Source of the DNA: a virus
IMG/VR virus record: IMGVR_UViG_3300046450_002841
Coordinates: 1 to 24,679 of that record
Reading direction: 5' to 3' (one strand)
Length of the DNA: 24,679 nt
In this document: piece after piece, positions 9,512 to 24,417 of the stretch
Numbering within the stretch: position 1 is the first letter of the stretch
Layout of the letters: every line of letters begins with the position of its first letter
Program-made: the position numbers and the translations under genes
The notes under the pieces: model-generated
Seen by the model: the letters and a program-made list of their open reading frames with translations, nothing else
Database searches by the model: none
What the model was told of the DNA's origin: nothing

Positions 9512-9886
9512 GTGAACAGCTTCAAGAGATCAGATTATTCCACGCTTGTGCGTCTGTTCCTAAAGGAGCCCACTAAGATAAACTACCCAAGAGAGTACGG
9601 CGTAGCCAAGAAGTTGCTCAGCACCTACAGCGACTTCACCTTTTGGAAATCAACCCTCCTAGACCCAAAGCGTTCCATCTTGAATTCTTTAGCCTACTTC
9701 TTAACTGAAGACGGTAAATATTTTTTAAAATATAATTACAGCATCCACAAGAAGAGGGAAAAGCTTTCCTTAGTTTCACCTGAGTCCAAGAAGATACCGC
9801 TAAGCGAAAACAAAATAGGAAAAGACTTGTCCCCGAAAATCGAAGTTAAGTTATCATTAATGGATTTTATTAAAAATGACACGTAA
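9512..9886 (+). CDS. Unknown protein, first gene of the recombination-replication operon
   Basis: This 124-residue basic protein starts with GTG. The N-terminal part (NYPREYGVAKKLLSTYSDFTFW, with leucine and aromatic residues) looks like a small folded helical domain. The part after residue 80 is Lys/Ser/Pro-rich (KKREKLSLVSPESKKIPL) and ends in a short hydrophobic segment LSLMDFIKN that could be a peptide docking motif. I do not recognise a family. It overlaps the recA-like gene by 11 nt and shares its promoter, so a role in recombination or replication is likely by context. The start is fixed by the promoter at 9478-9505. Confidence 0.6.
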   Translation: MNSFKRSDYSTLVRLFLKEPTKINYPREYGVAKKLLSTYSDFTFWKSTLLDPKRSILNSLAYFLTEDGKYFLKYNYSIHKKREKLSLVSPESKKIPLSENKIGKDLSPKIEVKLSLMDFIKNDT

Positions 9887-10970
9887 AAAACAAGAAAAAA
9901 CCGGCTCAGGCCCAGTGGACCAGATCCAAGCCTACCTTGAACAGAACAAGGGCGACCATTACAACTTCGAGGAAGACAGGGTATACAACGTCTCGAGCGG
10001 TAGCCTTCTCTTGGATATAGAGCTAGGCGGAGGAGTCAAACCCGGAGTAATTAGGGCTACAGGCGTAACCGAAGGAGGCAAGACGTCGTGCGCTTTAGCT
10101 TTCGCTAGGAATTTTCAGAAGATGGAAAACTCAATGGTAATTTATGTTAAGGCAGAAGGAAGACTGTCTGGTGACTTAATCGAAAGAATGGGCCTCGATA
10201 CTGATCCAAGAAAATGGCAAATCATAAAGTCTAACGTTTATGAAACGGTAATTAACCTAATGAGACAGATGGTGAAAGATAACCCGACGGACTCACGCTA
10301 CATGTTTATCATCGATTCCATGGACGCCTTAATCCCCAAAGGGGACCTAGAGAAGGGATCAGAGGAGGCGCTAAAGGTCGGTGCTGGAGCGCTATTAAGC
10401 TCAGACTTTCTCCGCAGGATGGCCCTCGCGCTAGCCACACGCGGCCATGTCTGCTACATGATCTCGCAAGTGAGGAGCACCATCAAAATAAACCCGTACG
10501 AAAAAACCAACCCCCAAGTAACCAACGCTTCAGGAGGTAATGCTGCGCTCCACTACAGCGATTGGATTTTAGAATTCCAACCAAGGTATGTAAAAGATAT
10601 AATTTCTACTCAGCCAAACGGAAAGGGAGACGTCCTTGGACATTGGTGCAAGGTCGTGTTCAGAAAAACCCCTAACGAAAAAACAGGAACCACCGTCAGA
10701 TACCCCATTCGGTATGGCAGGGTTGGGGGCAAAAGCATCTGGGTAGAGTATGAGATAGTAGACATGCTTCTTCAATGGGAAATGGCCACAGCTAAGGGCG
10801 CGTGGGTTACTGTGTCAGACGAAATTATCGAAGAGGTCAAGAACGAAACGGGCTTAGAGTTTAAAAAGCAACACCAAGGCATGGACAACCTAAGAAAGTA
10901 CTTCGAAGAAACGCCAGATATAGGTAAGTACTTATTTCGCAAGTTCAGAGAAGCTCTAAAGAAAAGCTAA
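9876..10970 (+). CDS. RecA/UvsX-family recombinase
   Basis: This is a strand-exchange ATPase of 364 residues, close in length to RecA. It has SGSLLLDIELGGGVKPGVI, a Walker A GVTEGGKTS (residues 63-71, unlike the GPESSGKTT of most bacterial RecA), a catalytic-Glu segment VKAEGRL (IDAEHAL in RecA), Walker B MFIIDSMDALIP, and the L1/L2-like region with ISQVRSTIK and SGGNAALHYSDW. It would form filaments on ssDNA for recombination-dependent replication and repair. The divergence of Walker A and of the Glu segment suggests the phage UvsX/RecA-like branch. It overlaps both neighbours (11 nt upstream, 1 nt downstream), so it is in an operon driven from 9478. Confidence 0.9.
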   Translation: MTRKKQEKTGSGPVDQIQAYLEQNKGDHYNFEEDRVYNVSSGSLLLDIELGGGVKPGVIRATGVTEGGKTSCALAFARNFQKMENSMVIYVKAEGRLSGDLIERMGLDTDPRKWQIIKSNVYETVINLMRQMVKDNPTDSRYMFIIDSMDALIPKGDLEKGSEEALKVGAGALLSSDFLRRMALALATRGHVCYMISQVRSTIKINPYEKTNPQVTNASGGNAALHYSDWILEFQPRYVKDIISTQPNGKGDVLGHWCKVVFRKTPNEKTGTTVRYPIRYGRVGGKSIWVEYEIVDMLLQWEMATAKGAWVTVSDEIIEEVKNETGLEFKKQHQGMDNLRKYFEETPDIGKYLFRKFREALKKS

Positions 10971-11575
10971 TGCAACAATTTTTCCCGTTTAATGACGACG
11001 CTCGCGTCACGATTAACGATGGAGGCATAGACCTCTCAGCCGTACCGCCGATGGATTTCACTTCTCAAAATCCCAAATTCAAAAACCTTCAAAGGGGGGT
11101 TAAGACTAAGAAAATGAAAAAATTATCACTGCTCCCCTCTGGAAAATACACAGCACACCCGACCGGAGCTCTACACAGACTCAAGGAGTATCACGACCTC
11201 GGACCAATTTTCCCGTACGTCCTTAACGTAAAGAAGGGTAAACACCTCAAAATAAGGGTAACCAGAAATCAGTACCCGTGCTTGGCAATCCAAATAGGCG
11301 CAGCTACAAAACTAGACTACGCTGCTCATGAAATTTTTGCAATATTATTTATAAAAAATTTACACCCGAGCATCTTCTGTATGGTAGACCATGGAGACGA
11401 CGATAAATTAAACTACCAAATCAGCAATTTATCTTGGGTTACCCAATCATACAATCAAAAGAAAGCTTTCGTGGCCTCGAAAGACTCTACCGACAGGATA
11501 TTATCTATCGGAAGCCATCGCATCAAGTACAGAACTAGCGATACAAGCGAAGAATTATGCGACTATATGATATAA
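10970..11575 (+). CDS. HNH endonuclease-like protein
   Basis: The 201-residue protein has an HNH-type core in its second half: AAHEIFAILFIKN, then VDHGDDDKLN with a candidate catalytic His141, and SNLSWVTQSYNQKKA. This follows the phage HNH pattern 'HRLVAxAFIxN...VNHxDGxxxNN...NLEWVTxxxN'. The glycine/asparagine spacing is altered (DHGDDDKLN), so it may be active or degenerate. The first 100 residues carry no motif that I recognise. It starts on the recA stop codon and ends inside the next nuclease gene by 19 nt. It could be a free-standing homing endonuclease or a DNA-processing nuclease of the phage; the tight operon fit favours the latter slightly. Confidence 0.65.
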   Translation: MQQFFPFNDDARVTINDGGIDLSAVPPMDFTSQNPKFKNLQRGVKTKKMKKLSLLPSGKYTAHPTGALHRLKEYHDLGPIFPYVLNVKKGKHLKIRVTRNQYPCLAIQIGAATKLDYAAHEIFAILFIKNLHPSIFCMVDHGDDDKLNYQISNLSWVTQSYNQKKAFVASKDSTDRILSIGSHRIKYRTSDTSEELCDYMI

Positions 11576-11973
11576 AAGGGAGGCTCCGAAGCAAGAACGT
11601 AAGCAAGTATTTAATCGACTGGAACAAAAAGTCTAGATCTAAAATTCAATTTACGACAAAAAAATTTCTTGAAACGCGCTGGAGAAAGCATATAGTTTTC
11701 GAGGAATTCCCGGTCTACGGAACCAGAATGAAAGTCGACATACTAAACGCGACAATAAAGGTCGCCATAGAAGTCCAAGGAAACCAGCACAGCTCCTTCA
11801 ATAAGTTCTTCCACGGCAACTCGCGAGCGAAGTACCTAGAGTCCATCAAGAGAGATGTGCTGAAAAGCGAATGGCTCAGCAAGAACAACTACAAGCTAAT
11901 AGAAGTCGAAGAGAACGAAATAAAACTACTATCCGAAGACTTTTTCCTAAAAAAATTCGGACTCAAATTTTAA
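11557..11973 (+). CDS. PD-(D/E)XK-like nuclease (Vsr/DUF559-like)
   Basis: This 138-residue basic protein has the core of a restriction-type nuclease. A WRKHIVFEEFPV strand and KVDIL (Asp61) are followed by VAIEVQGNQH (Glu72-x-Gln74, then His78) and a helix with Lys/Arg, ending in KNNYKLIEVEENEI. This is the order of Vsr-like and DUF559-like enzymes (VDFxI...AIEVDGxxH...LxxxGYxVI.ix..EI). Gln replaces the usual Lys or Asp after Glu. Possible roles are Holliday-junction resolution, mismatch-type nicking or homing. It sits between recA and the helicase and overlaps the HNH gene by 19 nt. I cannot distinguish these roles by sequence alone. Confidence 0.65.
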   Translation: MRLYDIKGRLRSKNVSKYLIDWNKKSRSKIQFTTKKFLETRWRKHIVFEEFPVYGTRMKVDILNATIKVAIEVQGNQHSSFNKFFHGNSRAKYLESIKRDVLKSEWLSKNNYKLIEVEENEIKLLSEDFFLKKFGLKF

Positions 11974-11975
11974 CG

Positions 11976-12003
11976 TTGCCTCAGCAAAAAGGACCCATAT
12001 ACT
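11976..12003 (+). promoter_or_regulatory. Sigma-70-type promoter before the helicase gene
   Basis: TTGCCT (11976-11981), a 16-nt spacer and TATACT (11998-12003) match the other promoters of the window. The first ATG downstream is at 12013, 9 nt after the -10, and opens a 5-codon minicistron. The helicase ATG follows at 12034. Confidence 0.7.
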
Positions 12004-12012
12004 TGTCAGAGA

Positions 12013-12030
12013 ATGAACGGAGGAAAGTAA
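12013..12030 (+). other. Possible 5-codon leader minicistron (MNGGK)
   Basis: ATG AAC GGA GGA AAG TAA begins 9 nt after the -10 of the promoter, the usual place for a start codon in this phage. Its GGAGG (12018-12022) also serves as the ribosome-binding site of the helicase ATG at 12034. Translation of the minicistron could therefore compete with, or couple to, helicase initiation. Confidence 0.35.
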
Positions 12031-12033
12031 AGC

Positions 12034-13521
12034 ATGGATTCAATATATTCAATTAAGATAGAGAAACACGTATTAGGAGGACTAATAAAAGAGCCAAAGA
12101 TATTCGCGGATGTGGAAAAATTCGTTTCAGAAAAAGACTTCATAAACGAAGTCCATCAAACTATTTTTTGCGTTATAAGAAATTGCTACCTAAACAACGA
12201 AGGTATTGACCCCGTTGTTCTAGCGGAAAAAATTAAAAATATCGGCATATCATTTAAGGACGATATAGACATTTACGATTACATAGAAGCGATCTCGTTC
12301 AATACCATGAACAAAAACGGCGTACTGGAAGCGTGCAGGGAGTTGAAAAAGCTCACGGTCAGGAGGGACCTATATCATAAGTGTGACGATATCAAGAAGT
12401 ACCTGAAAGAGAATGGCGAAAAAGCCGTAGATGAAATCATCACGACGGCAGACCATCTTTACGGTGACCTCATAAGAGACTTCGAATGCGCCGAGAAAGA
12501 GCCGGAGAACCTTTACGAAGGTCTCCCAGAGCTAATAGAAACCATCGGGGAAAACCCGCAAGACGACTTCGGGTTCTCAACGCCATACGAAGAGTTCAAC
12601 AGGCTATACGGAGGGCTAAGGCCCGGGAACCTTTACGCTGTGGTGGCGAGACCGGGACAAGGTAAGTCTACGTTAATACTTGATATTTGCAGAAAAACCG
12701 CAAAGAAGCACGGGATTAAAACCCTGTTGCTAGACACAGAGATGAGCACCAAGGACATTAAACTCAGAGTAGCCGCTGCGGAGTCCGGTGTATCTTTGTG
12801 GCATCTCGAGACGGGCAACTTCAGAAAGAACACAGAGCTGACCAAGAAATGGAGAGAGTCGAGCGCCTCAATGAAGGAACAATGCGTTTACCACTACCCT
12901 GTCGGAAACAAAAATATAGACCAAATCTGCTCCTTCGTTAGAAGATGGTACTACACAAATGTAGGAAGGGGAAACCCCTTTATTCTGGGATACGATTACG
13001 TAAAACTAACAGGAGAACACGTCGGCAACAACTGGGCAGAACATCAGGCCATCGGTGACAAAATTGATAAACTAAAAAAACTGTCCGAAGAGCTCAACTG
13101 CCCGATTGTAACGGCTATGCAAATGAACCGCACAGGTGAAAGTTACAACAGAAGAGCGGGAGCGGTCGTCGATGATAGTTCCGCCATAGCCCTGTCAGAC
13201 AGGCTTCAGTGGTTTGCGTCATTCGTGGCCATTTTCAGGAGAAAAACGTTAGACGAAATAGCTGAAGATGGCGAAGACTTCGGTACACACAAACTAGTCC
13301 CCCTGAAAACTAGATTCCAAGGAAGAGACGCGGCGGGTCATCACGATTTAGTTAGAAGACCCATGGCGGACGGAACAGTTAGGTTCACCAACAACTTCCT
13401 TAATTTTTCAGTTCAAAACTTTAACGCTGAAGAAGTGGGCTCACTCAACGATATAGTCAATAGGGAAAGAGACCAACATAACCTAAACGACCCCGCTCAA
13501 AGTGACGGAGAACTTCTGTAA
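12034..13521 (+). CDS. DnaB-like replicative DNA helicase
   Basis: This hexameric 5'-3' helicase has 495 residues, near the length of bacterial DnaB. The N-terminal helical domain (about 1-110) has IEKHVLGGLIKEP, FVSEKDFINEVHQTIFCVI and the helices that bind primase. The RecA-like domain starts near 190 with YGGLRPGNLYAVVARPGQGKST: Walker A is Gly208-x-Gly210-Lys211-Ser212-Thr213. It is followed by LLLDTEMSTKDIKLR (H1a), a Walker B region FILGYDYVKL, and MQMNRTGES (H3-like). The Gly-Tyr-Asp-Tyr Walker B differs from the usual IDYLQ. It sits directly before the primase gene (1-nt overlap), so the two are made together. A GGAGG ribosome-binding site lies 11 nt before the ATG. Confidence 0.93.
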   Translation: MDSIYSIKIEKHVLGGLIKEPKIFADVEKFVSEKDFINEVHQTIFCVIRNCYLNNEGIDPVVLAEKIKNIGISFKDDIDIYDYIEAISFNTMNKNGVLEACRELKKLTVRRDLYHKCDDIKKYLKENGEKAVDEIITTADHLYGDLIRDFECAEKEPENLYEGLPELIETIGENPQDDFGFSTPYEEFNRLYGGLRPGNLYAVVARPGQGKSTLILDICRKTAKKHGIKTLLLDTEMSTKDIKLRVAAAESGVSLWHLETGNFRKNTELTKKWRESSASMKEQCVYHYPVGNKNIDQICSFVRRWYYTNVGRGNPFILGYDYVKLTGEHVGNNWAEHQAIGDKIDKLKKLSEELNCPIVTAMQMNRTGESYNRRAGAVVDDSSAIALSDRLQWFASFVAIFRRKTLDEIAEDGEDFGTHKLVPLKTRFQGRDAAGHHDLVRRPMADGTVRFTNNFLNFSVQNFNAEEVGSLNDIVNRERDQHNLNDPAQSDGELL

Positions 13522-14438
13522 TGGATGTAAAGAGCATACTCTTAGACGTCGGCTACTCTAACATTAAAGATAACGGCCGAGAACTAAGAATGAGACCCAT
13601 TTACAGGGACTCAGGAAACGACTCAGTGCTTTCTGTAAGGAAAGACACCGGGCACTTCATTGACTTCAGTAAATCCGTTAGCGGTTCCTTCGAGTACCTA
13701 ATACAATTGTCCTTGGGGCTTAAAAGCGTTGACGAAGCCAAGCGGCACCTTCAAGACAAATGGTCTATTACGACTATAGAAAGAGATCACAGACCAACGG
13801 TAGAAAGTTTAAAAATTTTTCCACAGACCTACCTTACCAAACTCATCCCTAATCACAAATACTGGAAAGACAGAGGCGTTGCCAAGGAGACCATAGAGAC
13901 CTTCGAGGGTGGAGTCGTAGAGAACGGCACCATGGCCAATAGATATGTATTTCCTATTTTCAATTCAAGGCGAGACCTCATTGGACTGACCGGCAGGGTA
14001 ATCAATGAACCCCAAAACAAAAAAACCCCGAAATGGCTACACAAAGGTAAGACTTCTGAATGGAAATACCCACTTCAGTATAACTATAACTCCATAAAAG
14101 AAAAAAAAGAAATCTTCCTTATAGAAAGCATCGGAGACATGCTGGCAATGTGGGGAGGCGGAGTGAAAAACACCCTGATAGTCTTTGGCCTTAACCTGTC
14201 CCCCTCAATAATGAGTTTATTAATTAAATTGAACTTAAATAAAATTTTTATTTCTTTTAATAATGACTCCTATAATAACAACGCAGGGAACAAGGCTGCG
14301 GTAAAGGCTAAAAAGAAACTAAGCAAACACTTTGACCCTGAAGACGTAGAAATTCACTTGCCTAAGAAAAACGATTTCGGGGAAATGAGCCCTGAAGAAA
14401 TACAAGAATGGATGATAAGCAATTTTGCGAAGAAGTAA
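13521..14438 (+). CDS. DNA primase (Toprim-type), cysteine-free
   Basis: The 305-residue primase makes RNA primers for the helicase encoded just before it. The N-terminal part, from about LRMRPIYRDSG to HFIDFSKSVSG, occupies the place of a CHC2-type zinc ribbon, but the whole protein has no Cys, so no Zn is bound by cysteines. The middle region (NHKYWKDRGVAKETIETF, YVFPIFNSRRDLIGLTGRVI) is the RNA-polymerase-like N-domain. The Toprim core shows FLIESIGDMLAMW (acidic Glu in place) and FISFNNDSYNNNAGNKAA in place of the usual DxD loop (DNDxxG), so the metal site is partly altered. Overlap with dnaB is 1 nt and with the next ORF 31 nt. Confidence 0.85.
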   Translation: MDVKSILLDVGYSNIKDNGRELRMRPIYRDSGNDSVLSVRKDTGHFIDFSKSVSGSFEYLIQLSLGLKSVDEAKRHLQDKWSITTIERDHRPTVESLKIFPQTYLTKLIPNHKYWKDRGVAKETIETFEGGVVENGTMANRYVFPIFNSRRDLIGLTGRVINEPQNKKTPKWLHKGKTSEWKYPLQYNYNSIKEKKEIFLIESIGDMLAMWGGGVKNTLIVFGLNLSPSIMSLLIKLNLNKIFISFNNDSYNNNAGNKAAVKAKKKLSKHFDPEDVEIHLPKKNDFGEMSPEEIQEWMISNFAKK

Positions 14439-14647
14439 GGAGGGTCCTTAAGGAAATTGGGCCAGAAGGCAAGAATATCCTTAGGAAAATATTAAAAGAA
14501 CAAGACAGGCACAACAGCCACAGTATCTGGAGATACAAGACTCAAAAACACGAAGAAGCCTACAACCGAATACTGAAGTTTAGAAGGCTCAAAAATTTAG
14601 TTGAATACCTACTTAATCTAGGCGAGGATAACAAAGAAGAAAGATGA
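14408..14647 (+). CDS. Small charged unknown protein
   Basis: This 79-residue, highly charged protein (MDDKQFCEEVRRVLKEIG, then KHEEAYNRILKFRRLKNLVE) is probably all helical, with one Cys. It overlaps the end of the primase gene by 31 nt and the VOC gene by 4 nt (ATGA). I do not recognise a family, so nothing more than co-expression can be said. Confidence 0.55.
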   Translation: MDDKQFCEEVRRVLKEIGPEGKNILRKILKEQDRHNSHSIWRYKTQKHEEAYNRILKFRRLKNLVEYLLNLGEDNKEER

Positions 14648-15201
14648 GACTAGACCACATAGCCTACAGAGTAGACGATAGGCGTAAAAGCGTCGCTTTT
14701 TTTACTGAGGCTTTTGGGTACAAGCTTGGCACAGAATTCCAAATTGAGTTCGACGACAGATCTAAAGCAGATTGCGTAGCTCTAGTGCCGCCAGAGACGA
14801 GGAGCGCGAACACCGAGCTTTGGGCTTACTTTTCCCTGCAAGCCACTTCCCATAAGCCCATTAAGTCTGAATACCATGCTCCACCAGAAATTTTCGTAAG
14901 CGACGGCTCTGAGGGTTCAATCGTCGGGAACTGGGTGAAGGAAAGGGGAGGGGTCGGAGGGATACACCACATAGCTTATCAAGTAGATGACGTAAAGGCA
15001 GTCATGGCCGAATGGAAAGAGAAAGGGTACGCCGAGTTCTACACGGAAGAGCCTATTACCTGCAAAAACCCAAACCTCACCCAAGCGTTTACCAAGCCAT
15101 CAAAACTAACGGGAGTAATGTATGAATTCATCGACAGGGAAGGCGCAGGATTTTGCGAAGACAGCGTTAAAAAACTTATGGAAAGCACCAAGAAAACTTG
15201 A
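14644..15201 (+). CDS. VOC-family metalloenzyme, HPPD-like
   Basis: This 185-residue protein has two VOC repeats. The first starts MRLDHIAYRVDD (His5 as possible metal ligand), and the second GGIHHIAYQVDDV (His109). The end reads LTQAFTKPS, then MYEFIDREGAGFCEDSVKKL with Glu161. The His-His-Glu set and the 'LxQxFT...FEFIxREGxxGF...KxL' C-terminal block are those of 4-hydroxyphenylpyruvate dioxygenase and hydroxymandelate synthase, Fe(II)-dependent oxygenases of 2-oxo acids. It is about half the size of HPPD (~350), so it is a minimal member and its substrate is not known. Glyoxalase-type chemistry is an alternative. It opens a metabolic island; the stop is 1 nt before the aldehyde dehydrogenase ATG. 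Confidence 0.7.
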   Translation: MRLDHIAYRVDDRRKSVAFFTEAFGYKLGTEFQIEFDDRSKADCVALVPPETRSANTELWAYFSLQATSHKPIKSEYHAPPEIFVSDGSEGSIVGNWVKERGGVGGIHHIAYQVDDVKAVMAEWKEKGYAEFYTEEPITCKNPNLTQAFTKPSKLTGVMYEFIDREGAGFCEDSVKKLMESTKKT

Positions 15202-15202
15202 T

Positions 15203-16741
15203 ATGAGAGACTACGAAGGAAGAAACTACATAAACGGTGAATGGCGTAAGCCCGAACACGAAACATACTCCAAGGTTAACCCGTCAACCGGAAAACATAT
15301 GGGGCTTTTCCCTGATAGCAAAAAACCAGTAGTACATGACGCTTATGTAGCAGCAAGAGAAGCTTTCGATGACTGGAGAAAAGTTAGCAGATTTACTCGA
15401 TCAGACTACATGTATCGAGTCTCTCAGATAATTGAGAGAAGAAGGGAAGATTTAGCTAAAGCTATCTCTCTAGAGACTGGAAAAAATTATAACGAAAGCA
15501 TCGCTGAGGTGAACGAAGCTCTTCATATGGCCCAGTTTACATTCGGGTCGGGTCGATATTCTCACGGCGAAGTCGTGTCGTCAGAAATACAAGATAAAGA
15601 TTCTTACATGTTAAGAAGGCCCAAGGGGGTTATCGCCATCATTTCCCCCTTTAATTTCCCCCTAGCTATAGGAGCCTACTGGTGTGCAGCACCAGCTATA
15701 GTAGAAGGAAACACCGTTATCCTAAAGCCATCGGAAGACGCTCCCTTGTCCACCGAGTTGGCGGTTCAAATCTACGAAGAAGCCGGCTTACCCAAGGGGG
15801 TGGTTAATTTAATTCACGGCAAAGGCGAGACGGGTGACGCATTAATACATGAAGACGTTGACCATATCTGTTTCACCGGAAGCGCCGAAGTAGGCCAGCA
15901 CATAAGGAAGACTGCTGCGGAAAGCTGGCATAAAACGACCTCTTGCGAAATGGGAAGCAAGTCCGCTTGCATTGTTTTCGATGACGTTGAAATTTCCCTA
16001 GCGTTAGAAGCCACGATAGCCAGCGCCTTTAAGCTTTCCGGACAGAGGTGCGTCTCTTCTAGTAGAATATTAGTGCAGCGAACCATCTATGACGACTTTT
16101 CCAGAAGATTCGCAGAGGAAGCTTCTAGGCTGAAAACCGGAAACCCACTTAAACCTAACTCAGGAACCTCTGGCTGCCCAGACGGCACAATCTGGGAAGA
16201 GGTAGTCCCCAACGACGACATATATTACGGCCCAATCATAAACGAGCAAGGATTCAATAAAGTTAAACGCTACAACGAATTAGTAGCGGAGGACAGCCGG
16301 GTGGAGGTTCTATTAAGCCCGACCTACAGCGGAAGTGACCGGTCTTACTATTCTACACCAATGGTGTACAGGTGCGAATGGCTAGGTCCTGACGCTAAAT
16401 TTCTTAGAAACGAAGTCTTCGGCCCTCATGTAGCTATTGTACCTTTTGACACCTTAAGCGATGCAATTAATATTTATAATGATACAGATTACGGTCTTGC
16501 CGTAGGCGTGCTTACGAACGACTTTCGCAAAGCGCGAGTGTTACGAGACGAATGCGAAGCGGGAATGATTTATTGGAACGGCGGATCCATAGCTGCTGAG
16601 TCCCACCTTGCTTTCGGCGGAGTTAAAAAATCAGGAAACGGATTCCCCAGTGCAGCCAGAACATTCAGATCGGTAACCCACGAAATAAGCTGGACTGTTA
16701 ATCATGCGGACAAGCTCACGTTTCCCCAAGGAATGAAATAA
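15203..16741 (+). CDS. NAD(P)-dependent aldehyde dehydrogenase, probably aminoadipate semialdehyde-type
   Basis: The 512-residue enzyme has full ALDH motifs: IISPFNFPLAIGAYW with the oxyanion Asn, GNTVILKPSEDAPLS, GKGETGDAL, CFTGSAEVGQHI, CEMGSKSACIVFDD with Glu249, SGQRCVSSSRILV with catalytic Cys283 (34 residues after Glu249, as in ALDH2), NEVFGPHVAIVPFD, and HLAFGGVKKSGNGF near the end. It would oxidise a semialdehyde to an acid. The paired lysine 6-dehydrogenase-like gene suggests alpha-aminoadipate semialdehyde (ALDH7-type reaction), but glutamate or succinate semialdehyde cannot be excluded. The ATG at 15203 is chosen because upstream codons overlap the VOC gene. There is only one nucleotide between them, so they are co-transcribed. 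Confidence 0.88.
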   Translation: MRDYEGRNYINGEWRKPEHETYSKVNPSTGKHMGLFPDSKKPVVHDAYVAAREAFDDWRKVSRFTRSDYMYRVSQIIERRREDLAKAISLETGKNYNESIAEVNEALHMAQFTFGSGRYSHGEVVSSEIQDKDSYMLRRPKGVIAIISPFNFPLAIGAYWCAAPAIVEGNTVILKPSEDAPLSTELAVQIYEEAGLPKGVVNLIHGKGETGDALIHEDVDHICFTGSAEVGQHIRKTAAESWHKTTSCEMGSKSACIVFDDVEISLALEATIASAFKLSGQRCVSSSRILVQRTIYDDFSRRFAEEASRLKTGNPLKPNSGTSGCPDGTIWEEVVPNDDIYYGPIINEQGFNKVKRYNELVAEDSRVEVLLSPTYSGSDRSYYSTPMVYRCEWLGPDAKFLRNEVFGPHVAIVPFDTLSDAINIYNDTDYGLAVGVLTNDFRKARVLRDECEAGMIYWNGGSIAAESHLAFGGVKKSGNGFPSAARTFRSVTHEISWTVNHADKLTFPQGMK

Positions 16742-16765
16742 ACGACAAGAAGTATAACGCAAAAA

Positions 16766-17134
16766 ATGAATTTTCATGAATCAGACAGGCTGGCCCCAAA
16801 AGGAGAAGAGAAAGTGGTCCTAGTAGACATAGACGAAACGGTTTGTTGCTATGGAAAAAAACGCCAATACGATTTAGCTATCCCAATCGATAAAAATATA
16901 CAAAAAATAAACAACCTGTACGACGAAGGCTGGAAAGTCATATACTGGACTGCCAGAGGCGGATCGCCTAAATCCAAGGCCGCAGGTAGATGTTATTATG
17001 ATTTTACTTGGAGACAGCTTGAGCAGTGGGGGTGTAAATTCCACGAATTGTCTACCGGAACAAAAGGAAACTTCATTAAGCCCCCCTTCGACCTAGTGAT
17101 AGATGACAAGGCCAAGCGAATAGAAGAGGTCTAA
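16766..17134 (+). CDS. HAD-superfamily phosphatase
   Basis: The 122-residue protein shows HAD motif I LVDIDETVC (Asp21 and Asp23), motif II VIYWTARGG (Thr), a TWRQLEQWG segment, and a C-terminal DLVIDDKAKRI (motif IV-like Asp-Asp). This is a compact, cap-less HAD of the type phages use as nucleotide or sugar phosphatases. The substrate cannot be read from sequence. It follows the aldehyde dehydrogenase by 24 nt. The TATAAC 7 nt before the ATG lacks a -35, so I take it as part of the same transcript. Confidence 0.8.
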   Translation: MNFHESDRLAPKGEEKVVLVDIDETVCCYGKKRQYDLAIPIDKNIQKINNLYDEGWKVIYWTARGGSPKSKAAGRCYYDFTWRQLEQWGCKFHELSTGTKGNFIKPPFDLVIDDKAKRIEEV

Positions 17135-17194
17135 CGTCTATTCGTAAAAATAACCTAAGAATGGAAGAGAGTATTTCAAAAAAAACGAAACGTC

Positions 17195-17338
17195 ATGAAC
17201 AAAAAGAGCTGGAAAGACCTATTTATTGGGACATCGCTAATGTCTTTATCTATTTTTTTATATTTTAATAGCCTGTACACGACTGAGGTCGCCCTGTTAA
17301 TAGTAATACTGGCCCTATGGGGGTTGGAATTTTTCTAA
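17195..17338 (+). CDS. Small membrane protein, 47 residues
   Basis: This short ORF begins MNKKSWKDLFIGTSLMSLSI, has a first hydrophobic helix over about residues 10-28, and a second (EVALLIVILALWGLEFF). It is probably a two-helix membrane peptide with a basic N-terminus facing the cytoplasm. Its stop is 1 nt before the next ATG (17340), an operon-like fit. A second ORF, 17161-17268 (MEESISKKTKRHEQ...), overlaps it in another frame with a hydrophobic end. The present one is preferred because it ends exactly at the next gene. Function unknown. Confidence 0.5.
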   Translation: MNKKSWKDLFIGTSLMSLSIFLYFNSLYTTEVALLIVILALWGLEFF

Positions 17339-17339
17339 A

Positions 17340-17573
17340 ATGAAAAAAGAAAATAATTTCATCAATAAGCTCAAGTCCCCCATCCCTCCACACTTGACCC
17401 CCGAAGAAAGGGAGCAGTGGGAAAAAGACGCGGAATGGGAACGACAGGAGCGCCAAAGAAGAAAAAGAGAAGGGATGTACTCAGGCCGGCGAAGCGATGG
17501 TTTTGTTTCTAGAATCTTCAAGAAACTAGCTCCCAACGACAAAAAAGATGGAAACATTGGATACGGACCCTGA
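17340..17573 (+). CDS. Small charged protein of unknown function
   Basis: This 77-residue protein has an LKSPIPPHLTPEEREQWEKD segment, a short run of Arg/Glu-rich helix (WERQERQRRKREG), and a basic Gly/Ser/Arg tail ending NIGYGP. It looks like a partly disordered nucleic-acid- or protein-binding peptide. No family is recognised. It starts 1 nt after the small membrane protein's stop and is followed after 17 nt by the dehydrogenase gene. Confidence 0.55.
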   Translation: MKKENNFINKLKSPIPPHLTPEEREQWEKDAEWERQERQRRKREGMYSGRRSDGFVSRIFKKLAPNDKKDGNIGYGP

Positions 17574-17585
17574 TACAGCGATAAT
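17557..17585 (+). promoter_or_regulatory. Possible promoter of the lysine-dehydrogenase-like gene
   Basis: TTGGAT (17557-17562), a 17-nt spacer and GATAAT (17580-17585) lie 5 nt before the ATG at 17591. The spacer differs by one from the 16 nt of the others and the -35 is weak, so this is tentative. Confidence 0.3.
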
Positions 17586-17590
17586 AAAGC

Positions 17591-18748
17591 ATGGAGCAAA
17601 AACCTAGAGCAGTAGTCTGCGGCGTTGGCCACATCGGAAAAGCTATCATTTTTTGCATGACCAAGCTAGGGTTTCACGTAATCGCCTTAGACCGAGACAA
17701 AGATGCGGCTAAGCACTTGCCCGACCAGTTGTTCGATTTCCTAGTGACTCCCAATCAAGAATCCATGGAAAAGGCTATTTTACTATCCCAACCCCACGTA
17801 GTAATATCCTCCCTGCCCTACCACCAGACGCAACAGGTTGCAGAATACTGCATAAGAAACAAACATAATTACTGCGACCTAGGAGGGAAAGTCAGGGTAT
17901 CTCAAAAAATTAACCAACTCGCCAACTCAAGCGGAAATTCTCCCGACGGCTTTCACGTCTTTACCGACCTAGGGCTAGCTCCGGGATGGGTTAACATTTT
18001 AGCCGAACACGGAAGGAAACAATTGCATGGAAAATTTAAAGATATTAAAAATATAAAAATGATGGTGGGAGGCATACCTGATCAACCCCGAAACCCACCG
18101 TTGAATTACGTCATGACTTGGTCGCTAGATGGACTAATAAATGAATATAAAGATAAATGTAAAATATTAATCAATGGTCAAGAAAGCTGGGTTGACGGCA
18201 TGGAAGGCCTTGAAGAAGTTAACACTAAATCTCGCGGCGATCTGGAAGCGTTCTACACTAGCGGTGGAGCGTCCCACTCAATAGAATCAATGAAATCCGC
18301 GGGTGTACAAAACTGTTCCTACAAAACCCTAAGGTATAAAGGGCATCGTGACATAGTGCGATTCCTAATAAAAGATTCCAAACTCAGCCAAGAATGCCTA
18401 GGGGAGCTATTCAAAAATACCGTTACTCATGGCGTTAGAGTTTTAGATATAGTCATAATTAAGGTTACGATAGACGCGGGAGACACGTCTTGGGATCAAG
18501 AACTCTTAATTCCTAACGGTAGCGTGTTCTCCGCTATGCAAAAATCTACCGCCTTCGCGATATCTTCTGTTGCGAAAATGATGGCTGAAAATTTCTTTAA
18601 AAAAAACGCGGCACAACACGGGGACCACCACGACGAAACACCGATAGCTTTATCCTACAAAGACGTAGACTATAAAGAATTCATGAAGAACGTAAACTTC
18701 TTGAGGGTAGAGACAGATGTCCTCGACGGCCCCTATGAGCAGGATTGA
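17591..18748 (+). CDS. Lysine 6-dehydrogenase / saccharopine dehydrogenase-family enzyme
   Basis: This 385-residue NAD(P)-dependent oxidoreductase has an N-terminal Rossmann motif CGVGHIG and LDRDKDA (acidic residue after strand 2, favouring NAD). These are followed by VVISSLPYHQT, NYCDLGGKV, FTDLGLAPGWVNILA, MVGGIPDQP, FYTSGGASHSIES and KTLRYKGHRD. The order and length fit L-lysine 6-dehydrogenase (about 385 residues) and its saccharopine dehydrogenase relatives. The 'DLGxAPGxxNIL...VGGIP' and 'TSGGxS...KTxRYxGH' blocks are the best support. The product would be aminoadipate semialdehyde, the substrate suggested for the aldehyde dehydrogenase 0.8 kb upstream. Carboxynorspermidine or saccharopine dehydrogenase activities remain possible. 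A 41-residue membrane peptide overlaps its end by 14 nt. Confidence 0.82.
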   Translation: MEQKPRAVVCGVGHIGKAIIFCMTKLGFHVIALDRDKDAAKHLPDQLFDFLVTPNQESMEKAILLSQPHVVISSLPYHQTQQVAEYCIRNKHNYCDLGGKVRVSQKINQLANSSGNSPDGFHVFTDLGLAPGWVNILAEHGRKQLHGKFKDIKNIKMMVGGIPDQPRNPPLNYVMTWSLDGLINEYKDKCKILINGQESWVDGMEGLEEVNTKSRGDLEAFYTSGGASHSIESMKSAGVQNCSYKTLRYKGHRDIVRFLIKDSKLSQECLGELFKNTVTHGVRVLDIVIIKVTIDAGDTSWDQELLIPNGSVFSAMQKSTAFAISSVAKMMAENFFKKNAAQHGDHHDETPIALSYKDVDYKEFMKNVNFLRVETDVLDGPYEQD

Positions 18749-18866: not shown

Positions 18867-19850
18867 ATGATAGAAAAAAATAAAAGAATCCTGTCTGCGT
18901 CAAGGATCAAAACGCTCGAAAGCTGCAGTTGGTCGTACTGGTGTAACTATCACCTTAAAGTGCCCCAGAGAGGCAATGACGGCGCAAGGAGAGGCACCGT
19001 GTGCCACTTAATCTTCGAGTGCCTACTGAAGCAGAGACATAAAAAACACTACGATTTAATAATGAAAGAGTCTAACACGGAAGCTAGTAAGTCCGTGGTA
19101 GCCTTGGTTAAAAAAGGCCTCAAGAGAGAGGGAGCCTTCTCCAAGGAAAACTTTGAGCTATGCATGAAGATGATCTTAGTAGCCTTAAACCAAGACTTCT
19201 ACGGCACAGGAGAAGAGCTGGAGCCAGCCGCCCCAGAGCTAGAGTTCCTCTTGGAGAATAAAAATCCCAAATACAGGATAAGGGGATTCATAGATAAAAC
19301 TCTCAGGTATAAAGATAAAGTAAAAATCATAGATTACAAGACGAGTAAATACAAGTTTAAAGGCGATGAACTTACGGCCAACGTCCAAGCGATGGCATAC
19401 ACTCTGGCTTCTAGAAAAAAACTATTTCCTAAAATAAAAAACGTGGAGGTAGAGTTCCAATTCCTAAAATTCCCCAGACAACCACTCCAGCAAGTCAAGA
19501 GCTCTGAGGAGCAACTAAAAGGTTTCGAACACTACTTAGCTCATGTTTATAAAATTATAAATAATTTTGATAATGACACGGCTAGGACAAATTTCGCCGT
19601 AGATTCGAACAAAAACAGATGGCTCTGTAAGGCTGGAGCGACATGGAGATGCCCTTACCTTGACCCCGTAGACTACTACGCCATTAAAAACGATTTTGAC
19701 GAAGTGGTAACAACTGCTTTCGAGGAGAAAGGTCTTCGCCCCTTAAGGAAAGGGGAAAAGCTAGTTAAACTAAGGTACGAAGGGTGTCCGGCTCACACCT
19801 ACTCAGATACATCCTTCGGAACAAAAGACGACCCCTTTGATTGGGCTTGA
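18867..19850 (+). CDS. RecB/Cas4-like PD-(D/E)XK exonuclease
   Basis: The 327-residue protein has SASRIKTLESCSWSYW at the start (the RecB-type S/T-xSRI motif with Cys20), RRGTVCHLIFE (helix with the conserved His), RGFIDKTL with Asp143, KIIDYKTSKYK with Asp156-x-Lys158 as the catalytic D-x-K, and ANVQAMAYTLA (QAxxY motif). Late cysteines (WLCK, WRCPYLD, YEGCPAH) with Cys20 could hold a 4Fe-4S cluster as in AddB, Cas4 and related phage exonucleases. It probably resects DNA ends for recombination or degrades host DNA. It starts a block that runs directly into the polymerase genes, with the next promoter overlapping its stop codon. Confidence 0.8.
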   Translation: MIEKNKRILSASRIKTLESCSWSYWCNYHLKVPQRGNDGARRGTVCHLIFECLLKQRHKKHYDLIMKESNTEASKSVVALVKKGLKREGAFSKENFELCMKMILVALNQDFYGTGEELEPAAPELEFLLENKNPKYRIRGFIDKTLRYKDKVKIIDYKTSKYKFKGDELTANVQAMAYTLASRKKLFPKIKNVEVEFQFLKFPRQPLQQVKSSEEQLKGFEHYLAHVYKIINNFDNDTARTNFAVDSNKNRWLCKAGATWRCPYLDPVDYYAIKNDFDEVVTTAFEEKGLRPLRKGEKLVKLRYEGCPAHTYSDTSFGTKDDPFDWA

Positions 19851-19881: not shown

Positions 19882-20631
19882 ATGGATGACTTAATTCCTT
19901 TATTCAAAACCCACTACAGTCTAGGGAAATCTATATTAAATTTAAGCTTATCAGAAAACGGTCCTGATGAGTCGGACTCTGTTTTCCTGATCTTAAAGGA
20001 AAAGAAAATGAAAGAACTGGTTCTGGTGGAGGACTGCATGACGGGATTCCTAGAGGCCTATAATAATTGCAAGGAGCAAGGAGTGAAGTTGGCCTTCGGT
20101 CTTCGCCTTACGGTCTGCTCAGATATGGAAGAAAAGTCTCCCGACTCACTTAAGACCAACAACAAGGTGATAATTTTTGCAAAGAATAACTCTGGATACA
20201 ATAAATTAATAAAAATATTCTCGCTCGCAGCTAGGAAAGGTTTTTATTACGAGCCCAGAATAGACTATAAACATCTAAGAGATAGATGGGACGACTCAAA
20301 ATTAATGATGGCCATACCGTTTTACGATTCTTACATCTTTAAAAATACTTTAGAGAACAACATGTGTGTTCCGGAGTTCGACTTCACTGACCCTACGTAC
20401 TTTCTGGAAGACAACAACCTCCCCTTTGACGAGTTAATAAGCGACAAGACGACTAACGTAGCAAGCAAAACGCAAAAGACACAAAGCGTTTACTACAAGA
20501 ACAAAAAAGACTTCAAAGCTTACCTAACGTTCAGATGCATAAATAATAGAAGTACCCTAGATAAACCTCAACTAGAGCACATGACTAGCAATGAGTTTTG
20601 CGTGGAAGGATGGATGGAAAAGAATGGATGA
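19882..20631 (+). CDS. DNA polymerase III alpha PHP-domain fragment gene
   Basis: This 249-residue protein corresponds to the N-terminal part of DnaE-type polymerases. It has PLFKTHYSLGKSIL (PHP start), LVEDCMTGFLEAYNNCKEQ, VKLAFGLRLTV, IIFAKNNSGYNKLIKIFSLA, GFYYEPRIDYKHL, and ends in a DFKAYLTFRCINNRSTL, NEFCVEGWMEK segment. This last matches the region that in DnaE is followed directly by the polymerase part. The normal PHP metal site is degraded (Cys instead of His in VEDC, few His), so it probably has a structural role. The gene stops with an 8-nt overlap into the exonuclease gene, so the alpha subunit is split here. The start at 19882 is set by the promoter; TTG at 19837 is unlikely. Confidence 0.85.
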   Translation: MDDLIPLFKTHYSLGKSILNLSLSENGPDESDSVFLILKEKKMKELVLVEDCMTGFLEAYNNCKEQGVKLAFGLRLTVCSDMEEKSPDSLKTNNKVIIFAKNNSGYNKLIKIFSLAARKGFYYEPRIDYKHLRDRWDDSKLMMAIPFYDSYIFKNTLENNMCVPEFDFTDPTYFLEDNNLPFDELISDKTTNVASKTQKTQSVYYKNKKDFKAYLTFRCINNRSTLDKPQLEHMTSNEFCVEGWMEKNG

Positions 20632-21262
20632 ACAATACCTAAGGTTCGATAAAGAGAAGGAATACGTTTTCCTTGACTGCGAGACGCTCAATCTCTGTCT
20701 TAATTCATGCCACAACCTGCCTTGGCAGATAGGCATGATCAAGCTAAAAGCCGACAAAATTATTGCAACCAAAAATTTTTACATAAAATGGGACACCCAA
20801 TTGAAGATTAGCGCAGACGCAGCAAGAATAACTAAGTTCAGCCCTAAAGCGCTAGAGGAAAGGGGGCTACCCCCAGAAGAAGTCTTCCCAACAATGCAGG
20901 ACTGGCTAGATAATTGCGACTACATAGTAGGGCACAACTTTCTTGGATTTGACTTATACTTACTTAAGGATTTCTATGAATACATGAACGAACCATACAG
21001 GCACCTTGTAAGAAAAGTCATAGACACGAATTGCATAGCCAAAGGGTTGAAGTTCGGTCACTACTACAAAGCTGGAGACGATTTCCTAGAATATCAGTAC
21101 AAAATGTATTCCCTAAGGAAAAAGGGGGTAAGAACCAACCTCACTTCCTTGGGTAAAGAATACGAAATTAAACACGACTACGAAAGCCTTCACGATGCGG
21201 TGGTTGATCTTGAGCTCAACGTTAAAGTATGGAATAAAATAAAATGGATGGTCGAACTATGA
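20624..21262 (+). CDS. DnaQ-like DEDDh 3'-5' exonuclease (Pol III epsilon-like)
   Basis: This 212-residue proofreading-type exonuclease has Exo I VFLDCETLNL (Asp18 and Glu20), Exo II IVGHNFLGFDLYLL (Asp after Asn-Phe), and Exo III LHDAVVDLELN (His and Asp). The alternative start at 20591 would lie further inside the PHP gene. The gene sits exactly between the two halves of the polymerase: its start overlaps the PHP gene by 8 nt and its stop overlaps the polymerase ATG as ATGA. That resembles PolC of Gram-positive bacteria, where the exonuclease is inserted in the PHP domain, but here it is a separate protein. It would proofread for the split polymerase. Confidence 0.9.
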   Translation: MDEQYLRFDKEKEYVFLDCETLNLCLNSCHNLPWQIGMIKLKADKIIATKNFYIKWDTQLKISADAARITKFSPKALEERGLPPEEVFPTMQDWLDNCDYIVGHNFLGFDLYLLKDFYEYMNEPYRHLVRKVIDTNCIAKGLKFGHYYKAGDDFLEYQYKMYSLRKKGVRTNLTSLGKEYEIKHDYESLHDAVVDLELNVKVWNKIKWMVEL

Positions 21263-23802
21263 CATCTGACTTTACAGATAATTTTGAAGAACTCGATCTC
21301 GGCATTCACGGAGTAAGACTCCCTTCCTTTAATGTTAGCGATGAGGACAAGCGCAAACTTGGCGTTAGCGAAGACATAAAGAACGAAGACTTTCTGCGTA
21401 AACTCTGCGAGGACAGCCTTATCGAAAGAAACCTCGACAAGGAAAAGTATAAAGAAAGGCTTGATTATGAATTCAATACAGTTAAAGACTTAGGGTTCAT
21501 TGATTACCTCTTGCTGGTCTGGGAGGTTATCAACTATTGCAAAAAAGAAAAAATTCCGACGGGCCTCGGGCGCGGTTCAGCAGCGGGAAGCCTTCTCCTT
21601 TTCCTAATGGACGTAACAAAGATTGACCCCCTGAAATACGATTTATATTTTGAGCGTTTCATCTCTAAAATTCGCGCCAAGAAAAATATAGTAGACGGCG
21701 TAACCTATCTAGACGGTTCGTTGATGATGGATGTAGATTTAGATATTTGTTATTATAATCGCCAAAAAGTATTAAAATTTTTAGACGACAAGTTCTCAGG
21801 CAAGACAGCTAAGATTATCACGCTGAACACACTAAGCGGCAAGCTTTGCATGAAGGAGTGCGGCAAGGTAGTTTCGTCGAAATCCGAACAAGAAATGAAC
21901 AAGGTGTCGTCCCTTATTCCAAAAGTATTCGGACAAGTAAAAGACTTAAAAGAAGCCTACGCCGAGGTCCCAGAGCTAAGAGAATGGTGCGACGAGAATA
22001 GAGAATGCTATGATATCGCCCTCAAGATAAAAGGGCTTAATAAAAACAAAGGAGTGCACCCCTCGGCGATTTCCCTTTCTTACGACATGATGGAAGACAC
22101 CTGCCCAACAGAACTTACCTCAGATAAGAAAAGCTTTGTTTCTTCTTACGATATGAACTGGGTGTCCATGTTCAACGTAAAGCTTGACATACTTGGACTC
22201 AGGGCGGTCTCAGTAGTTAATGACGTCTGCAACAATGTAGGCATTCAAATCTCCGACATAGATCTAACTGACAGCTTGATTTATGATAATTTGCAAAACC
22301 TCAGGACGCCTCACGGGTTATTCCAAATCGAGGCAGACACGAACTATAGGGTGTGCCGGAAAGTTAAACCCAAGAACCTAGAAGAGCTCAGCGGTGTTTT
22401 GGCCTTGGCAAGACCCGGCGCGTTAGCTTTCGTGGATCAATACGCCGAGTACGTTAACACAGGGGAAACAAAATCCATCCATCCATTTTTCGACGACATC
22501 TTATCGGAGACGGGAGGGGTCGCTCTATATCAAGAGCAGTTAATGAAAATGGCGAACAAAGTCGGGTTCAGCCTAGACGAAGCGGAATTGCTCCGACGGA
22601 TTGTCGGTAAGAAAAAGGTAACAGAAGTTAGAAAGTGGAAGAAAAAAATCAAAGACAAGGTAAAGACGAACAAAATAGACCCAAAAGTCGGAGAAATACT
22701 GTGGAAACTTCTCGAAGATTCCGCGAATTATTCGTTCAATAAATCCCATTCCATATCTTACGCAGCCTTAGCGGCGATCACGGTCTACTTAAAATTCAAA
22801 TACCCCCAACAGTTCTTTCTGAGCTTACTTAAGATGACTAGGCATGAGCCAGACCCAATTCAAGAGATATCTAAAATACAAAGGGAAATGTCTCACTTTG
22901 GCGTGGAGCTACTTAGCCCACACATAATTAAATCCGACATGGATTTCAACACCGAAAACGAAAACATAAGATTTGGACTGTTGTCCATAAAGGGGATTTC
23001 CGAAAAATCTATTGAAAAATTAAATAATTTTAAAAATAATTACTCAGGCAAATTCGAGGTCTTTGAAGGAGCGAAAGAATCAGGGCTTACCATCGGCATT
23101 CTTTCCGCATTAATCCAAGCAGGTACCTTCGAGGGCTTCCATTCGTCCAGAAGCAAGATAGTCTACGAAGCTCAACTCTGGAACATTCTTACCAAAAAAG
23201 AAAAAGCTGCAGCATTGTTAATGGACGGGAAGCACAACTCCGATTTAGTCGAAATAATAAAGTCTTTATCCGGTAAAAAAGACGACAAAGGTAAACTGAT
23301 AATTAAGGACACGAGACTCAAGACAATAAAAACAAAGTCTGAGCCATATAAACAGATTTACTTTAAAAATAAATACTCAGAATCCTTTGCGAATTGGTAT
23401 TACGAAAACCACCTATTAGGTTATACTTGCGGTAAAACTCTTATAGATATTTTTGAAAAGAAAAGGAACGGCTTAATGACGCTAAGAGAGGTCGAAGACG
23501 CGGAAGTTGACGAAAGCGTATCGTTTGTAGGCACTATAGAAAGCAAGCCGTATTTTGGCAAATCCAGAAACGATAACCAGTACATGAAGGCCTTCGTTAA
23601 AGACGAGACGGCCAACATAAAAGTAATGATCTTTTCTAAGAGGTTAGAAAACATGCTGTCAGAAAATGCGCAGAACCCACCCTCAGAAAATAACATCATA
23701 ATTGTAACGGGAAAGAAAAAGGAAGAGGTAGTCTTCGCGGACAGAATAGCAATACAAACCAACAGAATTTACACTAAATTGTCCGACCTGAAAGATGCTT
23801 GA
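21259..23802 (+). CDS. DNA polymerase III alpha catalytic fragment (DnaE-like, without PHP)
   Basis: At 847 residues this carries everything in DnaE after PHP: LPSFNVSDEDKRK, RLDYEFNTVKDLGFIDYLLL, PTGLGRGSAAGSLLLFLMD (fingers/palm), DVDLD at 158-162 (the Asp pair of the PDIDIDF motif), KLDILGL with Asp310 (third catalytic Asp), YQEQLMKMANKVGFSLDEAE with LLRRIVGKKK, and YSFNKSHSISYAALAAI. Near the C-terminus VSFVGTIESKPYFGKSRNDN is an OB-fold domain. It would be the replicative polymerase. The ATG at 21259 overlaps the exonuclease stop by 4 nt; an upstream ATG at 21244 is less likely. No helix-hairpin-helix segment was confirmed by eye. Confidence 0.95.
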   Translation: MTSDFTDNFEELDLGIHGVRLPSFNVSDEDKRKLGVSEDIKNEDFLRKLCEDSLIERNLDKEKYKERLDYEFNTVKDLGFIDYLLLVWEVINYCKKEKIPTGLGRGSAAGSLLLFLMDVTKIDPLKYDLYFERFISKIRAKKNIVDGVTYLDGSLMMDVDLDICYYNRQKVLKFLDDKFSGKTAKIITLNTLSGKLCMKECGKVVSSKSEQEMNKVSSLIPKVFGQVKDLKEAYAEVPELREWCDENRECYDIALKIKGLNKNKGVHPSAISLSYDMMEDTCPTELTSDKKSFVSSYDMNWVSMFNVKLDILGLRAVSVVNDVCNNVGIQISDIDLTDSLIYDNLQNLRTPHGLFQIEADTNYRVCRKVKPKNLEELSGVLALARPGALAFVDQYAEYVNTGETKSIHPFFDDILSETGGVALYQEQLMKMANKVGFSLDEAELLRRIVGKKKVTEVRKWKKKIKDKVKTNKIDPKVGEILWKLLEDSANYSFNKSHSISYAALAAITVYLKFKYPQQFFLSLLKMTRHEPDPIQEISKIQREMSHFGVELLSPHIIKSDMDFNTENENIRFGLLSIKGISEKSIEKLNNFKNNYSGKFEVFEGAKESGLTIGILSALIQAGTFEGFHSSRSKIVYEAQLWNILTKKEKAAALLMDGKHNSDLVEIIKSLSGKKDDKGKLIIKDTRLKTIKTKSEPYKQIYFKNKYSESFANWYYENHLLGYTCGKTLIDIFEKKRNGLMTLREVEDAEVDESVSFVGTIESKPYFGKSRNDNQYMKAFVKDETANIKVMIFSKRLENMLSENAQNPPSENNIIIVTGKKKEEVVFADRIAIQTNRIYTKLSDLKDA

Positions 23803-23832: not shown

Positions 23833-24417
23833 ATGATAAGCTTTTACAAGCCCACGGAGAAAGTGACAGGCACAGCCATGTCCTTCTACCTTAACAAAAG
23901 AGACAATTCATTTTTTTCTAACATGATCAAGCAGGACTCTTGGGATGCTTCTCGCAAAATTGGCTCCTTCCAAAAGAACAAAAAGGTTGAAGGCAAGAAT
24001 GTAAACATTAAGTTTAACCAAACAGAAATAGCCGCCATGGTTGATGCCGTAGACAGAAACGCCGAGGTTTCTGGTTACCACGGAAGCAATCAGGTCGTAA
24101 GATTTTCCTTTGGCCCATACGTGCCTAAGCAAAAGACAAGCGATGGTGAATGGATCGAAGGAACAAAACAAAAGGGCTTTTCTTTCAGAGTTACCAGAGA
24201 AGCTAAAGAAGACTCGACGAATAGACAAAGCTATATCATAGGCTTAACTTTTCCAGAAGCGAAACTCCTCAGAGAGCACTTAGTGTATCTCCTAAACGAA
24301 AGCTTTGCTTTAACAGATAAAATAATGGAAGCCTCCTTCAAGAAAAAGCAAGAGCGAAGAGACGAAGAGGCTTCTCATGTTCCCGTCAAAACAGAAGATG
24401 AAGACGACCTTTGGTAA
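23833..24417 (+). CDS. Putative single-stranded DNA-binding protein with acidic tail
   Basis: This 194-residue protein has a KVTGTAMSFYLN strand, FFSNMIKQDSWDASRKIGSF, KNVNIKFNQTEIAAMVDAVD, YHGSNQVVRFSFGPYVP, and SFRVTREA with YIIGLTFPEAKLLREHL, a beta-rich fold with several aromatic and basic residues. The last part is charged and ends TEDEDDLW, an acidic tail with a final aromatic residue like bacterial and phage SSBs, which use it to bind replication partners. I do not recognise the OB fold clearly; a PC4/Whirly-like ssDNA-binding fold is possible. Its strong leaderless promoter, right after the polymerase, fits an abundant SSB. Confidence 0.5.
   Translation: MISFYKPTEKVTGTAMSFYLNKRDNSFFSNMIKQDSWDASRKIGSFQKNKKVEGKNVNIKFNQTEIAAMVDAVDRNAEVSGYHGSNQVVRFSFGPYVPKQKTSDGEWIEGTKQKGFSFRVTREAKEDSTNRQSYIIGLTFPEAKLLREHLVYLLNESFALTDKIMEASFKKKQERRDEEASHVPVKTEDEDDLW

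Follow-up and report, generated by a model that had tools for sequence, protein, structure and literature searches.

The viral record IMGVR_UViG_3300046450_002841 of IMG/VR (24,679 nt, analysed in its full length and called the window below) encodes its DNA polymerase III (Pol III) alpha subunit in pieces. A PHP protein, a DEDDh 3'-5' exonuclease and a DnaE-type polymerase core without PHP domain follow one another on the plus strand between positions 19882 and 23802. We consider it quite probable that the three represent a replicative Pol III alpha that was split once, long ago, and in which a catalytically dead PHP domain docks in trans as a scaffold for the DEDDh proofreader. It also seems fairly likely that PHP acts as an independent, non-catalytic subunit in trans in the Pol III of a large uncultured clade of tailed viruses.

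The PHP gene (19882-20631, 249 aa) starts with ATG, and a TTG lies in frame upstream at 19837. It overlaps the gene of the exonuclease, the proposed proofreader (20624-21262, 212 aa, ATG start), by 8 nt, ATGGATGA, and the latter overlaps the polymerase gene (21259-23802, 847 aa, ATG start) by 4 nt, ATGA. Both overlaps, read directly from the sequence, are exactly those given in the initial annotation of this DNA, and the coordinates, strand and Pfam identities of the three open reading frames (ORFs) agree with it as well. That annotation had described a DnaE cut at the boundary of PHP and polymerase with a DEDDh gene in between. Alignment with the N-terminal regions of 14 C-family polymerases from bacteria and phages bore this out, placing the break between the equivalents of residues ~248 and ~262 of E. 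coli DnaE, i.e. at the PHP/palm boundary. General DnaE models of NCBIfam were covered from ~30 to 246 by the first ORF and only from ~278 on by the third, and no PHP domain was present in the polymerase chain. Since the models span both ORFs, these together make up one DnaE from which only a short linker is missing.

The same arrangement was found in many relatives. A first scan of viral contigs gave 80 loci with polymerase identities of 60-83%, and later scans, for which a divergent member, a polymerase alignment (genome contigs) and a PHP alignment served as queries, extended the range down to 42%. After removal of duplicates 142 distinct loci with all three genes were obtained. The order PHP, exonuclease, polymerase was kept on the same strand in every one of them down to the lowest identity, no two of the three genes were fused in any, and the PHP gene always lay within ~2.3 kb upstream of the other two. 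Because the three-ORF layout recurs in all relatives, a frameshift, sequencing or assembly error as its source can be excluded. The PHP and exonuclease genes were at most 30 nt apart in 64 loci and more than 1 kb apart in 16, and the exonuclease and polymerase genes were at most 30 nt apart in 49. Both junctions were tight in 22 loci; in others the parts were separated by cargo genes spanning up to 2-3 kb. The earlier description of three coupled genes thus holds for the window, with its overlaps, and for a minority of relatives, but coupling is not a trait of the family.

Ten loci of the family had no PHP gene. In all of them the contig ends no more than 1.4 kb ahead of the exonuclease or polymerase gene, so that true absence of PHP from some members was rejected. 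PHP was also missing from locus L129, in which 2.6 kb of upstream sequence is present, but this locus matches the family weakly (27 bits). A fused close ancestor was rejected too: an outward walk gave split members only, and the nearest fused polymerases were distant DnaEs with ~30% identity. In one locus (L125:5971-8955) the polymerase itself occupies two ORFs in which profile positions 498-567 are repeated, so that either part of the gene is duplicated or the assembly is faulty.

The polymerase ORF matched DNA_pol3_alpha (7.4e-56), DNA_pol3_finger (1.4e-32) and HHH_6 (5.2e-14) in Pfam as well as the DnaE models PRK05673 (3e-136) and TIGR00594 (442.5 bits; cut-off 434.35); no PolC model of Pfam or NCBIfam matched it. 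It comprises palm, thumb, fingers, HhH and a probable C-terminal OB domain, with which the chain ends, and no tau-binding domain was recognised at its C-terminus. The putative OB domain gave a weak match to Pfam tRNA_anti-codon at residues 754-822 (E 0.014, below cut-off), and the weak Foldseek matches of the structure model beyond polymerases were SSB-type OB folds. The catalytic core has the Pol-beta-type palm and the Asp triad of DnaE-type enzymes, D158, D160, D162 and D310 being invariant in 31 aligned sequences. The model resembled DnaE structures (TMq up to 0.68), and DnaE fitted it better than PolC (E 3e-35 vs 1e-12). What sets the chain apart from a typical DnaE is the N-terminal PHP domain, which is a separate ORF in all complete loci.

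For the first ORF the only Pfam family matched was PHP (2.4e-13). Its AlphaFold2 model (pLDDT 84.8) has the fold of a PHP domain, and the best 18 PDB matches were all DnaE (TMq up to 0.73), with E. coli alpha-PHP/epsilon chimeras among them. An active PHP nuclease requires the nine-ligand metal motif HHDHEH[C/H]DH (PMC12926913). In the alignment this site was replaced in the viral protein (HxH, the H of DH, E, H, C and DxH), at most one D being left. The PHP domain of bacterial polymerases is often catalytically dead, its non-enzymatic role being an open question (PMC3666897, PMC12926913); in E. coli alpha it is structurally integral, and its degeneration goes along with the presence of a separate exonuclease (PMC3666897). 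Judged from its sequence, we propose that the viral protein is a free-standing DnaE-type PHP domain which is catalytically dead and serves as a structural subunit.

The second ORF matched Pfam RNase_T (5.6e-15). It has the DEDDh active site of the DnaQ/epsilon proofreading subunit, with D18, E20, D110, H190 and D195 invariant among the 31 sequences, and in all 31 only 17 residues follow the last catalytic Asp (motif III), so the PHP-binding C-terminal tail of DnaQ/epsilon is lacking. The combination of an invariant DEDDh site and replaced PHP ligands is the pattern reported for bacteria with a separate exonuclease and a degenerate PHP (PMC3666897). All three genes were under purifying selection, with median dN/dS values in close pairs of 0.030 for the polymerase, 0.034 for the exonuclease and 0.07 for PHP, which shows that the PHP gene is not a decaying remnant. 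Protein distances of PHP and exonuclease correlated strongly with those of the polymerase (r 0.95 and 0.97, respectively).

How might an alpha subunit in pieces work? It is likely that the three chains assemble into one enzyme, as the initial annotation had implied. The separate PHP protein would bind the polymerase core non-covalently at its palm/thumb side and serve there as a scaffold, and the separately encoded exonuclease would proofread beside it, presumably held by PHP. A candidate for the docking segment is found at the very start of the polymerase, where residues 5-22 (21271-21324, plus strand) form the conserved motif F-x3-F-x4-L-x-L-H-GVRLP. F5 is kept in 101 of 122 loci and F9 in 110 of 123, the remaining tail being variable, and the motif has a low pLDDT (44-57) in the model of the lone chain. 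We infer that it may dock on PHP and stand in for the lost covalent link. A PHP domain is able to bind the exonuclease as a module of its own, since residues 1-270 of E. coli alpha alone form a well-behaved protein with full exonuclease binding (PMC3642679).

Several observations weigh against this reading. The end of the viral PHP corresponds to E. coli residue ~248, and E. coli alpha truncated to residues 1-255 was insoluble (PMC3642679). The PHP protein on its own may therefore depend on its partner; alternatively, its last element may differ from that of E. coli. Since the exonuclease has no epsilon tail, its contact with PHP, if any, must be unlike that in E. coli. Much of the correlation of protein distances would be expected from shared descent alone. 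Moreover, 12 large contigs of the family (97-178 kb) were without a match to a beta clamp of bacterial type, and these contigs, in which DNA_pol_A and DNA_pol_B had no match either, may be incomplete.

The same observations could mean that PHP has left the polymerase for another role, such as regulation, host interaction or another scaffold, and that core and exonuclease replicate without it. It would be in keeping with this that PHP has its own gene, which in some loci lies over 2 kb away from the other two, that it evolves faster than the other two, that its metal site is lost and that the exonuclease lacks the tail by which epsilon binds PHP. Against it stand the invariable position of the gene upstream of the other two and on their strand, and the DnaE-type PHP fold, which has been retained in the model. 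Bacterial polymerases of the C family are reported to possess PHP universally and as an integral part of their structure (PMC12926913, PMC3666897), and each of the 12 large contigs contained one PHP of the viral family and no second copy. We therefore regard a departure of PHP from the enzyme as unlikely.

A second question is whether the enzyme is the viral replicase at all or an accessory polymerase of repair or recombination. Host enzymes could copy the viral genome, no clamp of bacterial type was found, and the group 2.2 jumbo phages possess a family B enzyme besides a split Pol III (PMC7824862). Set against this are strong conservation, the absence of any family A or B polymerase from the large contigs, and linkage to genes for a RecA/UvsX-like recombinase, a DnaB-like helicase and a DnaG-like primase, which in the window lie, together with HNH/homing endonuclease genes, at 9876-14438 on the plus strand (Pfam, PHROGs). 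A terminase match was present in 10 of the 12 contigs; a search for T4-type capsid proteins gave no match, and neither did its control search. Taken together, the lack of other replicative polymerases, the terminases and the linked replication genes make the three-gene enzyme most likely the replicase of a large uncultured clade of tailed viruses, and an accessory role appears improbable.

The initial annotation had seen in the three genes the same order as in PolC and had offered two origins, an intermediate form of PolC/DnaE architecture or a derived fission. The comparison with PolC did not hold. In an enterococcal PolC used as control the RNase_T match (432-583) lies within the PHP match (346-697) and the OB domain is N-terminal, whereas the viral exonuclease gene comes after a complete PHP and the weak OB match is C-terminal. 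The viral layout is thus not the PolC order broken into genes. Neither an N-terminal OB domain nor NI/NII domains of PolC were found in the viral proteins, and the viral exonuclease profile did not match the exonuclease of PolC. In a tree rooted on PolC, the 40 members of the family that were sampled came out as a single clade (SH-aLRT 100), joined by a long stem to the DnaE side, although the tree was made by a quick method, its deep branches are poorly resolved among DnaE1, DnaE2 and phage DnaEs, and long branches limit its reading. That PHP, exonuclease and polymerase are still separate genes in an ancestral intermediate might be suggested by the three domains standing in series, by the poor resolution of the deep C-family branches and by the 'ancestral minimal version' proposed for group 2.2 jumbo phages, whose Pol III is split (PMC7824862). 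We rejected such an intermediate as very unlikely because of the order of the domains, the profile matches and the tree. Of the two origins the tree favours the derived fission, and since both core and tree are DnaE-like, it was a DnaE that was split. On sequence grounds the simplest account would be one old derived fission at the PHP/palm boundary; arrival of the exonuclease gene before, with or after this event is each possible.

That the gene is merely interrupted, its parts being joined after transcription or translation by an intron, an intein or recoding, is scarcely credible: phage polymerase genes are often interrupted, and the DnaEs of Rossellomorea phage phiT1 and Alicyclobacillus phage KKP_3916 are cut inside the core, but here every part carries a start and a stop codon of its own, the intervening exonuclease is a conserved gene in a different frame in the window, the intervening stretch differs in length and content among loci, with an overlap (-8 nt) at one extreme and kilobases of unrelated genes at the other, and Rfam found no intron in the window or five relatives and no other splicing element, an explicit intein search not having been made.

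The surroundings of the three genes also deserve attention. Directly upstream of PHP the window encodes a PD-(D/E)XK nuclease of the Cas4/RecB-like type (18867-19850, plus strand; Pfam PDDEXK_1 2.8e-21, phrog exonuclease), which belongs to the replication/recombination cluster. Directly downstream of the polymerase a conserved 194-aa protein (23833-24417, plus strand) had no match in Pfam or PHROGs; a homologue follows the polymerase in L027, as seen from direct resemblance of the sequences. An HNH endonuclease gene and a homing-endonuclease-like ORF (10970-11973) are located between the RecA-like and DnaB-like genes, and glyoxalase/dioxygenase-like, aldehyde dehydrogenase and saccharopine dehydrogenase-like genes (14644-18748), which are likely auxiliary metabolic genes, separate the primase from the nuclease and polymerase genes.

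In the relatives the gaps between the three genes contained a small acidic ORF, nuclease-like ORFs, a cupin gene and genes resembling those of glycosyltransferases and carbamoyltransferases, several of these names coming from reading of the sequence without profile support. The small acidic ORF (~70-116 aa) lies between exonuclease and polymerase in 81 loci (e.g. L188:7719-8069 and L027:5760-5981); the longest member tested had no Pfam match, and the ORF is absent from the window. Between PHP and exonuclease, unrelated-looking ORFs show a PD-(D/E)XK-like pattern, noticed by eye without profile confirmation (e.g. L012:4142-4636 and L157:5807-6382). This gap looks like an insertion hot spot, which has also received glycosyltransferases and a cupin. 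Metagenome-assembled genomes (MAGs) with members of the family were labelled Flavobacteriaceae, Halobacteriovorax, Verrucomicrobiales, Woesebacteria and Lokiarchaeota. As these labels disagree, the MAGs look misbinned, and host assignment from them was rejected.

In bacteria, PHP was universally present in the C-family polymerases surveyed (PMC12926913). In the literature searched, which did not cover the survey of Kazlauskas and Venclovas (2011), we met no account of a phage Pol III PHP that stands as a protein of its own, and the novelty of the viral PHP is to this extent provisional. If our interpretation is right, these viruses offer a natural dissection, the detached domain being one that is reported to be fused to C-family polymerases without exception. 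How much PHP contributes to stability, to polymerase activity and to proofreading could then be tested by adding or omitting one protein. It also follows that there is a large viral group in which annotation of the replicase will overlook the PHP part.

One of the closest known systems is the E. coli-type DnaE1 with its separate epsilon/DnaQ, which shares the core domains (PHP, palm, thumb, fingers and HhH), the degenerate PHP and the separate DEDDh exonuclease. It differs in that the viral PHP is a separate product, the viral exonuclease has no epsilon tail and its gene sits between the two halves, and no tau-binding domain was recognised. PolC of Firmicutes likewise combines PHP, DEDDh exonuclease and polymerase, but in one chain with the exonuclease inside PHP and the OB domain at the N-terminus, and it is distant in the tree. 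All three domains are also found in flavobacterial DnaE1 (L217 and L218), whose N-terminal exonuclease was matched by the viral-family profile (2.7e-11 in a two-sequence test; 27 and 24 bits); these are, however, single chains of 1461-1476 aa in the order exonuclease, PHP, polymerase.

In group 2.2 jumbo phages Pol III alpha is likewise distributed over separate proteins, but there the catalytic core is cut between its NTP-binding and template-binding parts into two distant genes, PHP is absent and the phages also encode a family B polymerase (PMC7824862), whereas the core of the viruses described here is intact in one ORF and DNA_pol_B was not found in the 12 contigs. In Pbunavirus phage SN a DEDDh gene likewise overlaps the start of the DnaE gene, in whose product of 1036 aa PHP and polymerase are fused. 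Like SN, the phages NootNoot, Lannister, Astraea, Taylor and others have DnaE as one chain of full length. In cyanobacteria DnaE is also encoded by two genes, but the cut lies inside the core and the halves are rejoined by an intein (general knowledge; PMC3919608), while the viral parts flank a separate gene. Cuts inside the core with PHP still on the N-terminal half were observed in phiT1 (L255:3206-6491), KKP_3916 (L265:4833-10034), L221/L238 and L229 (MAG labelled Lokiarchaeota). These cuts in unrelated DnaEs nearly coincide (family profile ~316-353) and mark a recurrent second split site. Unlike them, the fission described here falls on a domain boundary and leaves the catalytic core whole.

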